Shown: positions 2,761 through 8,216 of the stretch, piece by piece
Position numbering within the stretch: position 1 is the first letter of the stretch
How the letters are laid out: every line of letters begins with the position of its first letter
From: a bacterium
GTDB taxonomy: Bacteria; BMS3Abin14
Direction: 5' to 3'
Length of the DNA: 8,216 bases
NCBI GenBank assembly: GCA_029210545.1
Contig: JARGFV010000106.1
Location: 1-8,216 of the forward strand
Made by a program: the position numbers and the translations under genes
The notes under the pieces: model-generated
Databases searched by the model: none
What the model was told of the DNA's origin: nothing
Seen by the model: only the letters and a program-made list of their open reading frames with translations

Positions 2761-3714
2761 ATGAAGCGAGCGATAATCCTAGCGATCTCAGTCATGTTCG
2801 TCTTCAGTGCCGGCATTGCCTTTGCCGAGTACCCCGAGAAACCCATCACCTACATTATCCCCTTTAACCCCGGTGGGGAGTCGGATGTCACGGCCCGCTT
2901 CCAGGAGCCCATCCTGGAGGAGGTCCTGGGTGTGGATGTGAACGTGAACCACAAGCCCGGCGGCGGCGGCGCGGTCGCGTGGAGCGAGTTCCAGCGCACA
3001 GCGAAGCCTGACGGCTACACCGTCATCGGGGTCAATATCCCCCACATCATCGGCGGGCCCATGCTGCGCAAGAACTCGGGATACGAGACCGACGGCTTCG
3101 GCCTGGTCATGTGGTTCCACTTTACCCCCAACGCTCTTGTGGTAAACGCGAACAGCCCCTTCAAAACTCTCAAGGACTTCATCGACTACGCAAAGGAACA
3201 CCCCAAGGTCATCACCGTGGGCGGCAGTGGCAGCTACAGCGCCAACCACCTGGAGATGTTGCGTTTGGAGCGTGAGGCCGGCATCAAGCTCACCTACATC
3301 CCGCACACGGGGACTGGTCCCCTGGTACCTGCTATCCTCGGCGGCCACCTCAGCGCCCTCATGACCTACTCCATGCCCCCCGTGCAGCTGGGGGACAAGG
3401 TCAGGGTCCTGGCTGTCGCCTCCGACGAGCGAGTCGAAGCCCTTCCGGACGCCCCCACTTTCAAGGAGCAGGGGTACGACATCGTGGGCGGAGCCTTCCG
3501 GGGCGTGGCCGCTCCCAAGGGAACGCCCAAGGCGGTTATCGACAAGCTGGCCGATGCCTTCACCAGGGCCAACAAGAAGATCGCCGAGAAACAGCTCCCC
3601 CTGGGGTTCGTCATGACCTACGCTACCGGGGATGACGCCACGGCTCTGGTGGAAAAGATGGGCAAGTCCTACAGCGACGTGATCAACGACATACTCGAAG
3701 AGCAGAAGAAGTAA
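2761..3714 (+). CDS. tctC: Tripartite tricarboxylate transporter substrate-binding protein (TctC/Bug family)
   Basis: This 317-residue precursor is the periplasmic receptor of a TctCAB importer. A Sec signal peptide is clear: MKR, a hydrophobic core, then a predicted cut after AFA at residue 22, leaving a mature protein starting EYPEKPIT. There is no lipobox cysteine. Family features are PFNPGGESD at 34-42, which corresponds to the PFxPGGxxD ligand-loop motif, KPGGGGAVAW at 65-74, DAPTFKEQGYD at 230-240 and the RGVAAPKGTP stretch near 247-256. Length is normal for the family. An in-frame ATG at 2641 would add 40 residues, but it lies before the sigma54 promoter and would bury the signal peptide, so 2761 is the start. 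It is the first gene of the operon, 49 bases ahead of tctA. Bug receptors bind varied carboxylates; a tartrate-type ligand is inferred from the downstream enzymes. Confidence 0.93.
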   Translation: MKRAIILAISVMFVFSAGIAFAEYPEKPITYIIPFNPGGESDVTARFQEPILEEVLGVDVNVNHKPGGGGAVAWSEFQRTAKPDGYTVIGVNIPHIIGGPMLRKNSGYETDGFGLVMWFHFTPNALVVNANSPFKTLKDFIDYAKEHPKVITVGGSGSYSANHLEMLRLEREAGIKLTYIPHTGTGPLVPAILGGHLSALMTYSMPPVQLGDKVRVLAVASDERVEALPDAPTFKEQGYDIVGGAFRGVAAPKGTPKAVIDKLADAFTRANKKIAEKQLPLGFVMTYATGDDATALVEKMGKSYSDVINDILEEQKK

Positions 3715-3763
3715 TCATCGGGTTTTAAAGCAGCAGCAGCCGCGAGAGGTCTCGGGAGGTCCA

Positions 3764-5305
3764 ATGGAGCTTTTCTGGAAAGTGGTCACGGAGTTGATGA
3801 ACCCCTTCGTTTTTTTCCTCATCCTGGGGGGAGTGACGTCGGGCCTCTTCGTGGGTGCCATGCCGGGGCTCACGGCTGCCATGGCCCTCGCGGTGCTGCT
3901 GCCTTTCACCTTCAAACTGCCACCGCTGCTGGGGCTGGTGGCCCTGGGCGCCGTCTACATGGGCGCCATCTACGGCGGGTCCTTTGCCGCCATTCTCGTC
4001 AACACCCCCGGAACCCCCTCATCCATCGCCACGGCATTCGAGGGGTACCCCATGGCCAAGGATGGGCGCGCCATCGAAGCCATAAGTATCGCCACCGTTT
4101 CCTCGGCTGTCGGCGGATTGGCGGGGGTATTCTTTCTGCTGGTTCTCTCGCCACCGCTGGCGCGCCTCTCCATCCAGTTCGGTTCCGCCGAGTATTTCTG
4201 GGTCGCCATGCTGGGACTCACCCTTATCGCCAGCCTCTCCCCGGGGTCAACGCTGAAAGGTTTCATGGGAGGGTCCTTCGGCATGGTCCTGGCCTCGGTG
4301 GGCGTGGCCCCCATCGGCGGAGAGAACCGGTTCACCTTCGGAATGCCGGTCCTGCAGGGCGGAGTGGAGATGATCGTGGCGCTTATCGGGTTCTTCGTCA
4401 TCCCCGAACTGTTCAACATGGCGGCCCACGGCCGGGCGGCCCTGGTCGAGGTCACCATGGACTCCAGGAAGCGGGGCACCTTTTTCAGCGCCATCCGCAC
4501 CGTGTTTTCCATGCCTGTCAACCTCATACGTTCGTGTATTATCGGCGAGATCGTGGCAATTATCCCGGGTGCCGGGGGCAGCATCGCCAACCTGGTGGCC
4601 TACAACGAGGCCAAGCGGGCATCCAAACACCCGGAACGTTTCGGCAAGGGGACCGTTGAGGGGCTTGTGGCCTCCGAGTCGAGCAACAACGTCACAGTGG
4701 CCGGAAGCATGGTGCCGTTGCTCACCCTGGGGATCCCTGGAGCTCCGCCTGACGCGGTCATCCTCGGGGTGATGCTGATGCACGGATTGCGGCCCGGCAT
4801 GGACCTTTTCACCGTGAGCGGCGACCTGACCTACGCTTTCATCATTTCCATGGGGTTAGCCGCGCTGTTCATGGTCCCCGTGGGGCTGCTGGGCGGGAGG
4901 CTCATCTACCGGGTGATCGTCAAGACCCCTCACTACCTGCTGGTACCATCCATCGCCCTCGTCACCATTCTGGGCACCTACGCCCTGCGCAACAGCCTGT
5001 CCGACGTGGTTATCATGCTCCTGCTGGGTACAACCGGGTTTGTCCTGCGGGAACTGGAAGTGGAATCCGCGCCCATCGTCCTGGGTCTCATCCTGGGGGG
5101 AATCGCCGAAATGGGTTTCGTCCAGTCCATCCTGAGAGGCACCTCCCTGGACCACCCGTGGATGATGCTGTTCCAGAACAGACTTTCACAGATCATCATT
5201 TTCATGATGGTACTTTCCTTCGCCTCCCCCTACCTTTCGGCGGGATTCAGGAGGTTCAAAAGAGGTCCTGAGGAGCTGTTAAAGGATGAAGGGGATTCTC
5301 CATGA
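3764..5305 (+). CDS. tctA: Tripartite tricarboxylate transporter large membrane subunit TctA
   Basis: This 513-residue, very hydrophobic protein is the channel subunit of the transporter, expected to have about 10-12 transmembrane segments in the inner membrane. Family signatures are present in order: VGAMPGLTAAMALAVLLPF from residue 30, YGGSFAAILVNTPGTPSS from residue 70, IIPGAGGSIANLVAYNEAK from residue 266, ESSNN at 305-309, and GIPGAPPDAVILGVM from residue 323. Length is normal (about 500) and no key segment is missing. The C-terminal tail FRRFKRGPEELLKDEGDSP is charged and probably cytoplasmic. The ATG at 3764 follows GGGAGGT at 3754-3760. The gap from tctC contains a short AGC triplet run and a minor CGAGA/TCTCG repeat, neither convincing as regulation. 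Its TGA overlaps the tctB start (ATGA), which indicates translational coupling. Uptake is thought to be ion-gradient driven in this family. Confidence 0.95.
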   Translation: MELFWKVVTELMNPFVFFLILGGVTSGLFVGAMPGLTAAMALAVLLPFTFKLPPLLGLVALGAVYMGAIYGGSFAAILVNTPGTPSSIATAFEGYPMAKDGRAIEAISIATVSSAVGGLAGVFFLLVLSPPLARLSIQFGSAEYFWVAMLGLTLIASLSPGSTLKGFMGGSFGMVLASVGVAPIGGENRFTFGMPVLQGGVEMIVALIGFFVIPELFNMAAHGRAALVEVTMDSRKRGTFFSAIRTVFSMPVNLIRSCIIGEIVAIIPGAGGSIANLVAYNEAKRASKHPERFGKGTVEGLVASESSNNVTVAGSMVPLLTLGIPGAPPDAVILGVMLMHGLRPGMDLFTVSGDLTYAFIISMGLAALFMVPVGLLGGRLIYRVIVKTPHYLLVPSIALVTILGTYALRNSLSDVVIMLLLGTTGFVLRELEVESAPIVLGLILGGIAEMGFVQSILRGTSLDHPWMMLFQNRLSQIIIFMMVLSFASPYLSAGFRRFKRGPEELLKDEGDSP

Positions 5306-5757
5306 AAAGGCAAACGAATACAGATCTTTTTGCAGGCATCCTCGGCCTGGTCCTGGTAGGCATCTTCTGGTACGGCCGGGGAGAAGTGGGCCACCTGAGC
5401 ATCATGTTCCCCAATGCGATCCTGTTTCTCCTCGGGGTGTTCTCGGTGGCCCTGGTTGTCAAGGGCCTGGTGCGCCCGCACCGCCGGTCCGTTTTTTCCG
5501 AGGGTGACAGGGGCAAGATCCTCGGTACCGGCACAATCCTCTTTGTATGGGTGATCGCTATTCCCTATGCGGGTTTTTTCCTTGCCAGCGTTGCGGGGTT
5601 TTGGGGATTGACATGCTATCTGGCCTCCACGCACCGGAAGGTGACGCCGCTCCAGGCAGGTAAATGGTTATGTATTGTCCTGGCCGAGGTGACCTTTTTC
5701 TACATGATCTTCGCCAAACTCCTTTACGTGCCTCTTCCAACCGGGCTCTTTTTCTGA
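5302..5757 (+). CDS. tctB: Tripartite tricarboxylate transporter small membrane subunit TctB
   Basis: This 151-residue membrane protein matches the size and pattern of TctB. Hydrophobic segments lie at about 7-24, 36-57, 73-90, 91-108 and 122-140. The loop at about 58-72 (RPHRRSVFSEGDRGK) is basic and probably cytoplasmic. The C-terminal FAKLLYVPLPTGLFF resembles the conserved end of the family, and IPYAGFFLAS at about 87-96 fits the usual central motif. TctB proteins are poorly conserved, so the call also leans on position: its ATG overlaps the tctA stop in an ATGA. An out-of-frame ORF starting upstream at 5286 is a shadow. TctB is required for transport with TctA, but its mechanistic role is not well defined. 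Confidence 0.9.
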   Translation: MKRQTNTDLFAGILGLVLVGIFWYGRGEVGHLSIMFPNAILFLLGVFSVALVVKGLVRPHRRSVFSEGDRGKILGTGTILFVWVIAIPYAGFFLASVAGFWGLTCYLASTHRKVTPLQAGKWLCIVLAEVTFFYMIFAKLLYVPLPTGLFF

Positions 5758-5807
5758 TCCGAGCCGGGGGCCTGTGAATCCGGTCCACCATGAAAGGAAG
5801 TTAAAAA

Positions 5808-6875
5808 ATGAGCAACAGCTATAAACTGACCCTGGTGCCCGGTGACGGTATCGGCAGGGAAATGATCCCGGAAGGGGTTCGGGTCCTCGACGCCCTGGCG
5901 GCGCAGCACGGTTTCAGCCTTAAGTACGAGGAGTTTCCCTACTCCTGCGATTACTACCGCGAGCACGGCCGCATGATGCCCGAGGACGGGATCGACCGAA
6001 TGTCCCAGTGCGACGCCATTTTCCTGGGCGCCGTGGGGTATCCCGGGGTGCTGGACCACGTGTCCTTGTGGGGGCTCCTGATCCCCATAAGGCGCAGTTT
6101 CCAGCAGTACATCAACATACGGCCGGTCCGTCTCTTTCCGGGGGTCGTATCACCCCTGGCCAACCGGACGGCAGAGGATATTGATTTTGTCGTTGTCCGT
6201 GAAAACAACGAAGGCGAATATTCCGAGATCGGCGGAAGGATCTTCTCCGGCACAGAAATGGAATCGGTAAGCCAGATCTCCGTATTTACCCGAATCGGCG
6301 TGGACAGGGTTTTGAGGTACGCCTTCGAACTGGCCCGCACCAGGCCCCGGAAGAAGCTCACATCCGCCACCAAATCCAACGGTATCGTCCACACCATGCC
6401 GTTCTGGGATGAGCGGTTTGCCGCAATGGGGTCCGAATACCCGGACGTTGAGACCGACCAGTTCCACATCGATATCCTCACAGCCCACTTTGTTCGCAAC
6501 CCCCACTGGTTCGACGTCGTTGTAGGCAGCAACCTCTTCGGCGATATCCTGAGCGACCTGGGCCCGGCAGTGGCAGGAAGCATCGGTATCGCACCTTCCG
6601 CCAATATCAACCCTGAGCGGGAGTACCCTTCCATGTTCGAACCTGTCCACGGTTCGGCTCCGGACATCGCGGGCATGGGGATCGCTAACCCCATAGCCAC
6701 CTTCTGGTCCATCGTCATGATGCTCGATTTCCTGGGGGAGAAGGAGGCAGGAGAGCGGTTGATGGAAGCCATGGAGACAGTGACCGGTGTGGGCCGGGTA
6801 ATGACTCCGGACCTGGGCGGGAAAGCCAGGACTGTGGACGTAACGGAAGCTGTGATAGCAGCCCTTGGAAACTGA
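5808..6875 (+). CDS. ttuC: Tartrate dehydrogenase / D-malate dehydrogenase (decarboxylating), NAD-dependent
   Basis: This 355-residue enzyme of the isocitrate/isopropylmalate dehydrogenase superfamily would act in the cytoplasm. Visible features: PGDGIGREM at 11-19, IRRSFQQYINIRPVRL at 94-109 with substrate-carboxylate arginines, RENNEGEYSEIGGR at 131-144 (the EGEYS-GGR form typical of the tartrate/D-malate branch, not the IPMDH form), catalytic Y138 and K189 (in TKSNG), metal ligands D222, D246 and D250, and HGSAPDIAG at 281-289, where D286 is the usual mark of NAD rather than NADP use. Characterised relatives oxidise L-tartrate to oxaloglycolate, convert meso-tartrate to D-glycerate plus CO2, and oxidatively decarboxylate D-malate to pyruvate. 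Which substrate matters here cannot be read from sequence; tctCAB upstream and the tartrate dehydratase downstream favour tartrate. The ATG at 5808 follows AAAGGAAG. Start and length are normal. Confidence 0.88.
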   Translation: MSNSYKLTLVPGDGIGREMIPEGVRVLDALAAQHGFSLKYEEFPYSCDYYREHGRMMPEDGIDRMSQCDAIFLGAVGYPGVLDHVSLWGLLIPIRRSFQQYINIRPVRLFPGVVSPLANRTAEDIDFVVVRENNEGEYSEIGGRIFSGTEMESVSQISVFTRIGVDRVLRYAFELARTRPRKKLTSATKSNGIVHTMPFWDERFAAMGSEYPDVETDQFHIDILTAHFVRNPHWFDVVVGSNLFGDILSDLGPAVAGSIGIAPSANINPEREYPSMFEPVHGSAPDIAGMGIANPIATFWSIVMMLDFLGEKEAGERLMEAMETVTGVGRVMTPDLGGKARTVDVTEAVIAALGN

Positions 6876-6932
6876 TCACTCGAAAAACCAGCAGGGGCAG
6901 GGAGGTTGAGCCGTCTGTAGGGGAGGGAACTG

Positions 6933-8114
6933 ATGAAGATCGTCGACATCCAGGAACGAACCGCCTCCATTGCCTCGAGCATCCGGAACGCCTATATAGA
7001 TTTCAGCAAGATGACGGTCTCGGTGGTGGCCCTGGTCACTGATGTCGTGCGTGACGGCAGACCGGTGGTGGGATACGGTTTTAACTCCAATGGGCGCTAT
7101 GCCCAGGGCAGCCTGCTCCGGGAGCGGTTCATTCCGCGGGTGCTCGAGGCCGATCCCGCGACCTACGTTTCCGAATCCCAGGGCAACCTCGATCCTTTCC
7201 GGCTGTGGGACCTCATGATGACCAACGAAAAACCCGGAGGCCACGGCGAGCGTTCCGTGGCCGTGGGCGTTATCGACATGGCGATCTGGGACGCGGCGGC
7301 CAAGATCGAGGGAAAGCCCCTTTATCGGCTGCTCGCCGAACGGTACAACGAAGGAAGGGCCGACGACCATGTCTTCGTCTACGCCGCTGGGGGGTATTAC
7401 TATCCCGGCAAGGAAACCGGGGAACTCAGGGACGAGATGAGCCGCTACCTGGATGGTGGATACAGCGTGGTGAAGATGAAGATCGGTGGAGCACCAATGT
7501 CGGATGATCTTCGCAGGATTGAAGCGGTCCTGAAAATGGTTTCCGAGGGAGAGCGGCTTGCTGTTGACGCCAACGGACGGTTCAACCTGGAAGCAGCGGT
7601 AGAGTATGGCGACGCCCTGACACCGTACGGCCTGCGCTGGTACGAGGAGCCGGGTGACCCTCTGGACTACCAGCTACATGCGGATCTCGCGGAGCAATAC
7701 AATGGCCCCCTCGCCACCGGTGAGAACCTTTTTTCCATGCAGGACGCTCGGAACCTTCTCCGTCACGCGGGACTCCGCCCCGACCGGGATATCCTCCAGA
7801 TGGACCCGGTGCTCTCCTACGGGCTCGTGGAGTACCTGAGGATGATCGAGATGATCGAGCAGATGGGTTGGTCACGCCGCCGGTGCATTCCCCACGGGGG
7901 GCACCAGTTCGCTCTCAATATCGCGGCTGGCCTTGGGCTGGGCGGCAACGAATCCTACCCCGAGGTGTTCGCGCCCTTCGGGGGTTTTGCGGACGATACG
8001 CCGGTGGAGGGGGGAATGGTGGGTCTGCCCGATCTCCCGGGAGTCGGTTTCGAGGCCAAGTCCGACCTGATGAACCTTATCCGTAACCTTTTCGACAGAC
8101 GGTTCTGTGAGTAA
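6933..8114 (+). CDS. tarD: Enolase-superfamily acid-sugar dehydratase, probable D(-)-tartrate dehydratase (EC 4.2.1.81)
   Basis: This 393-residue protein belongs to the mandelate racemase subgroup: a capping domain (about 1-125 plus the C-terminus) and a TIM-barrel. Active-site residues are all present: KMK at 181-183 with base K183, Mg2+ ligands D212 (VDANG), E238 (WYEEP) and E264 (TGEN), and the H321/D291 dyad (IPHGGH and MDP). From memory, Bradyrhizobium japonicum TarD uses K184, D213, E239, E265, H322 and D292, so every residue aligns with a constant one-residue offset; length is also close. That enzyme converts D-tartrate to oxaloacetate by anti-elimination of water. The capping-loop stretch NEKPGGHGERSVAVG at 98-112 probably contributes to substrate selection. 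The ATG at 6933 follows AGGGGAGGG, 57 bases after the dehydrogenase. The gene ends with two in-frame TAA codons. It closes the operon. Another acid sugar as substrate remains possible. Confidence 0.87.
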   Translation: MKIVDIQERTASIASSIRNAYIDFSKMTVSVVALVTDVVRDGRPVVGYGFNSNGRYAQGSLLRERFIPRVLEADPATYVSESQGNLDPFRLWDLMMTNEKPGGHGERSVAVGVIDMAIWDAAAKIEGKPLYRLLAERYNEGRADDHVFVYAAGGYYYPGKETGELRDEMSRYLDGGYSVVKMKIGGAPMSDDLRRIEAVLKMVSEGERLAVDANGRFNLEAAVEYGDALTPYGLRWYEEPGDPLDYQLHADLAEQYNGPLATGENLFSMQDARNLLRHAGLRPDRDILQMDPVLSYGLVEYLRMIEMIEQMGWSRRRCIPHGGHQFALNIAAGLGLGGNESYPEVFAPFGGFADDTPVEGGMVGLPDLPGVGFEAKSDLMNLIRNLFDRRFCE

Positions 8115-8177: not shown

Positions 8178-8179
8178 CC

Positions 8180-8212
8180 AAATCAATGACTCACCCCGTA
8201 AGTCATTGATTT
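8180..8212. terminator. Perfect 12-base inverted repeat, possible bidirectional terminator
   Basis: AAATCAATGACT at 8180-8191 and AGTCATTGATTT at 8201-8212 are perfect reverse complements around a 9-base loop, caccccgta. The stem is closed by AAA and TTT, giving a short T-stretch on both strands, which is a weak bidirectional terminator pattern. It may equally be the third module of a compound intergenic repeat. The window ends 4 bases later, so what follows cannot be assessed. Confidence 0.5.
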
Positions 8213-8216
8213 GTAA

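Follow-up and report, generated by a model that had tools for sequence, protein, structure and literature searches.

Can one operon take up and degrade several stereoisomers of tartrate, and does discrimination between them take place during uptake or within the cell? This question is raised by a locus from a little-sampled bacterial lineage, in which the genes of a TctCAB importer precede those of two different tartrate-type enzymes. The stretch of DNA analysed here (the window; 8,216 nucleotides) is an entire contig, C106; the draft genome to which it belongs measures 2.72 Mb. It carries seven genes on the + strand: a PCC-domain gene, a sigma54 activator gene and a five-gene block at 2761-8114. 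The block starts with tctC (2761-3714; PF03401, 9.7e-42), coding for the periplasmic receptor, followed by tctA (3764-5305; PF01970, 2.3e-132) and tctB (5302-5757; PF07331, 5.9e-9), coding for the large and small membrane subunits. Next come a tartrate/D-malate dehydrogenase of the decarboxylating dehydrogenase family (5808-6875; PF00180/TIGR02089, PRK08194) and a TarD-type D-tartrate dehydratase of the enolase superfamily (6933-8114; MR_MLE). These profiles bear out the enzyme and transporter families named in the original prediction, and the open reading frames, gene order, coordinates and ATGA overlap that it gave all proved correct on re-reading. The tctA/tctB overlap, read directly from the sequence, lies at 5302-5305; the remaining gaps from tctC to the dehydratase gene measure 49, 50 and 57 bp, and a plausible ribosome-binding site precedes every gene start, the one of tctB being the weakest. 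The spacing, the common orientation, a single upstream -24/-12 promoter and the synteny observed elsewhere suggest that the five genes form one transcript. All components of the operon are from known enzyme and transporter families. We consider it likely, with a probability of about 0.7, that this is a substrate-induced operon by which tartrates, and perhaps D-malate, are taken up and broken down. More specifically, it is probably a hydroxydiacid operon centred on D-tartrate, whose other enzyme would act on (R)-hydroxyl diacids.

Within the window, the function assigned most firmly, by homology, is the predicted dehydration of D-tartrate to oxaloacetate by the product of the last gene. Indeed, this dehydratase is 66% identical over its full length to TarD of Bradyrhizobium (Bll6730; PDB 1TZZ/2DW6/2DW7) and 69% identical to 4KEM. 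The KxK base (K181/K183), the metal-binding acids D212, E238 and E264 and the catalytic histidine H321 are invariant in the alignment; we take K183 and H321 to correspond to the base K184 and the acid H322 of TarD. Unlike the Bradyrhizobium gene, that of the window shares an operon with tctCAB and a dehydrogenase gene and comes from an unrelated lineage. Elsewhere in the genome, one protein of the class I fumarase/L-tartrate dehydratase type is encoded (L097, G000:C2:41382-42176).

The dehydrogenase scores above the cut-offs of two curated tartrate dehydrogenase models, TIGR02089 (560.6 bits, cut-off 470.4) and PRK08194 (516 bits, cut-off 501). Its best PDB match is the P. putida tartrate dehydrogenase (3FLK), and it keeps the catalytic Lys/Asp motifs of the TIGR02089 group, which also includes E. 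coli DmlA. The genome contains no other close homologue, the next one being 39% identical. Since characterised members of the TIGR02089-type tartrate dehydrogenase group use D-malate too, passing these models does not discriminate between the two activities. Moreover, because the enzyme is 60% identical to both the P. putida tartrate dehydrogenase and E. coli DmlA, its substrate (L-tartrate, meso-tartrate or D-malate) is not readable from sequence. In the tree, the two references are sisters within a larger group, where the window's enzyme forms a deeper branch with moderate support, and the tartrate and D-malate activities are not separated. The enzyme could thus be physiologically a DmlA-like D-malate dehydrogenase, the operon then serving D-malate and D-tartrate and not all tartrate isomers. 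The equal identity to both references, themselves 78% identical, makes this alternative a serious one, which we hold to be less likely than not. The window's enzyme also differs from both references in the helix beside the substrate site, which reads SLWGLLIPIRR instead of SLWGSLLKFRR, and the former type is common to most other dehydrogenases adjoining this transporter and TarD. A second dehydrogenase subfamily, marked by the motif TKSNAQRxGMVLW and forming a clade with a support of 100/98, recurs in these clusters (L003 8929-9990; L025 7848-8903; L093 15250-16296; L094 11999-12949), at times beside the first type. Its L003 member passes the TIGR02089 cut-off and may have a different substrate.

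Turning to the importer, TctC, TctA and TctB are all complete, and the receptor with its signal peptide, TctA and TctB together make up a TTT transporter. The signal region of TctC ends with GIAFA before EYPEKP. The receptor is one of 13 sequences that form a clade with a support of 100/99, and all of them carry GGESD where the others have GGxTD or similar. Nearly all of these 13 sequences also show a SANH- or SSNH/N-like motif, whereas the others have Ser before His-Leu. TctC belongs to the same fold family as the C4-dicarboxylate TTT receptors MatC (6HKE) and BugD (2F5X). However, it has Glu40 at the position of BugD Pro29/MatC Pro30, reported as ligand-contacting (PMC13390454), and Asn162 at the position of Ser151, a residue of BugD and MatC in contact with C4 ligands (PMC8556258). 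Since two contacting positions are changed, the ligand site of TctC differs from those of the known malate and aspartate receptors, and these substitutions may alter its specificity.

At least 560 TarD loci exist in named genomes, and the neighbourhoods of the 80 best were surveyed. Among these 80, the order TctC-TctA-TctB-dehydrogenase-TarD on one strand was found in Trueperaceae (L004) and Aurantimonas (L042). The same order occurs at a second Aurantimonas locus (L036), where tctB is undetected by similarity and room for it is present, and in Palleronia (L025), where two dehydrogenases are present and A and B are apparently fused. It is also found on a plasmid (L093) and in a genome of the sister genus (G007). 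At locus L003, which reads A-B-dehydrogenase-dehydrogenase-TarD, a run of N (assembly gap) upstream of tctB hides any tctC or regulator. The five-gene order, implied at first to be singular, therefore recurs in Trueperaceae and Alphaproteobacteria, and its uniqueness was rejected. Three loci (L023, L068 and L075) combine the transporter and TarD with no dehydrogenase, and most of the remaining loci among the 80 have neither transporter nor dehydrogenase. Since the loci were chosen by TarD, the link between transporter and TarD in this survey is not independent. An independent search with TctC only matched 4 of 72,556 plasmids, and three of these four have TarD within about 7 kb, TarD being carried by only 108 of the 72,556. 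One member of the GGESD subfamily (L096) has no TarD nearby. Within the window's own family, the operon is present in two of the 12 genomes, a pattern that may reflect its gain or loss through transfer; widening the TctC search to the class and phylum covered the same 12 genomes only.

These neighbourhoods also bear on the breadth of uptake. Near relatives of TctC in Halomonas (L068) and Rhodobacteraceae (L023) adjoin TarD without the dehydrogenase, as would be expected if the receptor were strict for D-tartrate and the dehydrogenase substrates were formed intracellularly or imported separately, with no broad-isomer uptake module. Such strictness is a credible possibility, to which we give somewhat less than even weight. 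On the other hand, the dehydrogenase joins the same transporter and TarD repeatedly, in distant phyla, and the clusters of the sister receptors hold homologues of both the (S)- and the (R)-sulfolactate dehydrogenase.

Indeed, genes matching suyAB, slcC and comC lie in the same cluster at L023, L036, L042, L075, L095 and L096, together with an exporter gene at L023, L042, L095 and L096. They were called by similarity to a Paracoccus set (families GD_AH, 2-hydroxyacid dehydrogenase and Ldh_2), and their naming rests on cluster composition and literature (PMC12421959, PMC6018796), with no equivalog model passed; the comC match is far below the cut-off of the sulfolactate dehydrogenase model. SlcHFG is listed as a sulfolactate TTT transporter, of Roseovarius and Chromohalobacter (PMC5812351), and SlcC and ComC interconvert the two sulfolactate enantiomers (PMC12421959). 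On plasmid p296221 of Paracoccus aestuarii (L095 7423-16150), suyAB-slcHFG-slcC-comC-exporter-like genes are directly followed by TarD in one run. The receptors from the sulfolactate-type clusters are the sister group of the window's TctC and share its GGESD motif; the proteins compared were SlcH-like ones, assigned by synteny, in place of the named SlcH. Within the GGESD clade (100/99), the window's TctC lies on a branch separate from the sulfolactate-linked plasmid receptors. Like SlcHFG, the window's importer is a TTT system with tctB after tctA, but its genes are linked to tartrate-type enzymes, and suyAB, slcC and comC are absent from the window. The relatives in suyAB-slcC-comC-like clusters could mean that the importer is mainly a sulfolactate transporter, derived from an SlcHFG-type ancestor, and that its position beside TarD is secondary. 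We find this improbable. A SuyB query, run without a positive control, had no match in the genome or its family, and in Trueperaceae (L004) and Halomonas (L068) the transporter and TarD occur together with no sulfolactate genes in the stretch examined.

For a tartrate importer, the sulfolactate connection matters in another way. Since the closest relatives of TctC are found in, or sister to, receptors of clusters that deal with both sulfolactate enantiomers, a stereo-tolerant receptor gains circumstantial support and appears plausible. In general terms, and quite tentatively, GGESD receptors could constitute a stereo-tolerant class for small 2-hydroxy dianions (tartrates, D-malate, sulfolactate), marked by the Glu-for-Pro and Asn-for-Ser changes and accompanying enantiomer-complementary enzyme sets; this generalization may well turn out to be wrong. 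To our knowledge, ligands are known for few TTT receptors. Tartrate is absent as a TTT substrate from a 2018 review, which mentions no tartrate TTT importer, and a literature search for tartrate with TTT gave incidental matches only. Were the generalization on GGESD receptors true, import of tartrate would for the first time be shown for a TTT system, within the limits of the literature searched. The conserved link of GGESD receptors to TarD, tartrate/malate dehydrogenases and sulfolactate enzymes leads to a testable ligand prediction, and the same receptors offer a handle on where stereochemistry is screened. The original prediction had suggested a broad tartrate-isomer module, possibly having a receptor loose about stereochemistry. 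The linkage of the importer genes to a TarD-type dehydratase and a TIGR02089 dehydrogenase, on which it was built, is conserved in unrelated bacteria, whereas the breadth claimed for the enzymes meets a dehydrogenase equally close to both references; the broad-isomer module and the loose receptor are hypotheses.

The gene content of the 2761-8114 span stands as first proposed, but the span starts at tctC and leaves out the regulator, the sigma54 promoter, a dyad and the upstream PCC-domain gene. The regulator (676-2544, + strand) is a one-component sigma54 activator composed of PrpR_N, PAS, AAA+ and Fis-type HTH domains (PF06506, PF00989, PF00158 and PF02954), and is the only PrpR_N protein found in the genome. 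It resembles PrpR, the activator of propionate catabolism, in its PrpR_N sensor, sigma54 AAA+ and Fis-type HTH domains. In contrast to PrpR, it has an additional PAS domain, scores 388.4 bits against the PrpR equivalog TIGR02329 (cut-off 499.2) and adjoins a tartrate-type operon; the window lacks prp genes. The gap of 216 bp that precedes tctC contains a -24/-12 (sigma54) promoter, TGGCACGCCCCTTGCT (2658-2673, + strand), an exact match to TGGCACRNNNNTTGCW, of which about 5e-5 would be expected in that gap. Together with the activator and with rpoN, present in the genome, this site with its GG/GC core points to sigma54-dependent transcription, and the PrpR_N/PAS activator probably controls the operon. 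This pairing suggests that PrpR_N sensors can recognise acids besides methylcitrate.

A 26-bp dyad, AATGCAACGCAACGTTGTGTTGCATT (2552-2577), is centred about 120 bp upstream of the presumed transcription start and, by its symmetry and by comparison with G007, is a candidate upstream activating sequence. The corresponding gap of G007 has diverged, except for the promoter core, aligned as TGGCATGTCGCTTGCT, and the dyad. The window copy of the dyad has one mismatch; that of G007 has none: at two positions both partners differ from the window copy, and a single further change restores the symmetry. Such symmetry was reached by none of 1000 mononucleotide shuffles in either genome. Being located just past the regulator stop and resembling, in a terminator scan, a terminator stem followed by a short T tail, the dyad could instead be the transcription terminator of the regulator gene. 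This is improbable, however, in view of the A+T-rich stem, of a single-strand folding that is unremarkable (z -1.09), and of the G007 copy, perfectly symmetric without a T run.

In G007, what is left of the activator is a remnant of about 64 C-terminal residues (L083 7560-7736) that immediately follows the PCC gene, and the 91%-complete assembly yielded no PrpR_N protein; the loss may be a real decay or an assembly fault. Since most of the gene is lost and the operon is kept, the activator may be dispensable in G007. At the Trueperaceae and Aurantimonas loci, the operon instead adjoins GntR/FCD regulators and showed no -24/-12 match; the proposed sigma54 control is therefore a feature of the window's lineage and not of the module.

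Collectively, the operon could work as follows. On sensing a ligand inside the cell, the PrpR-like activator would attach to the dyad near -120 and switch on sigma54 RNA polymerase at the -24/-12 promoter. In the periplasm, TctC would capture the 2-hydroxy-diacid, to be imported by TctAB. Once inside, D-(S,S)-tartrate would be dehydrated by TarD to oxaloacetate, and the dehydrogenase would take (R)-hydroxyl substrates: L-tartrate, meso-tartrate, which would give D-glycerate and CO2, or D-malate, which would give pyruvate and CO2. The gene families, the active-site residues, the promoter match, the conservation of the dyad and the recurrent synteny behind this scheme were observed here, and from them we infer the transcript, the inducer, the receptor ligands, the dehydrogenase substrate and all fluxes.

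Upstream of the regulator, the PCC (DUF296) domain gene (183-608, + strand; PF03479, 1.1e-30) lies between the regulator and a contig-end repeat, and its product has His residues (HTH, GGHL) that could bind metal. This protein is kept in G007 with 71% identity, despite the reduced regulator there; the literature found for the PCC domain concerns plant AHL proteins only. The repeat, TTTTTGCGAAGYCATCA, is found at both contig ends (1-18 and 8133-8150) and is dispersed in the genome, with 87 copies at up to one mismatch and none in the reversed-pattern control. It often lies close to contig ends and is probably what interrupted the assembly here. A near-perfect short inverted repeat, CAAATCAATGACTCAC/GTAAGTCATTGATTTG, occupies 8179-8213 at the contig end, and its last 19 bases recur at a contig end of G007.
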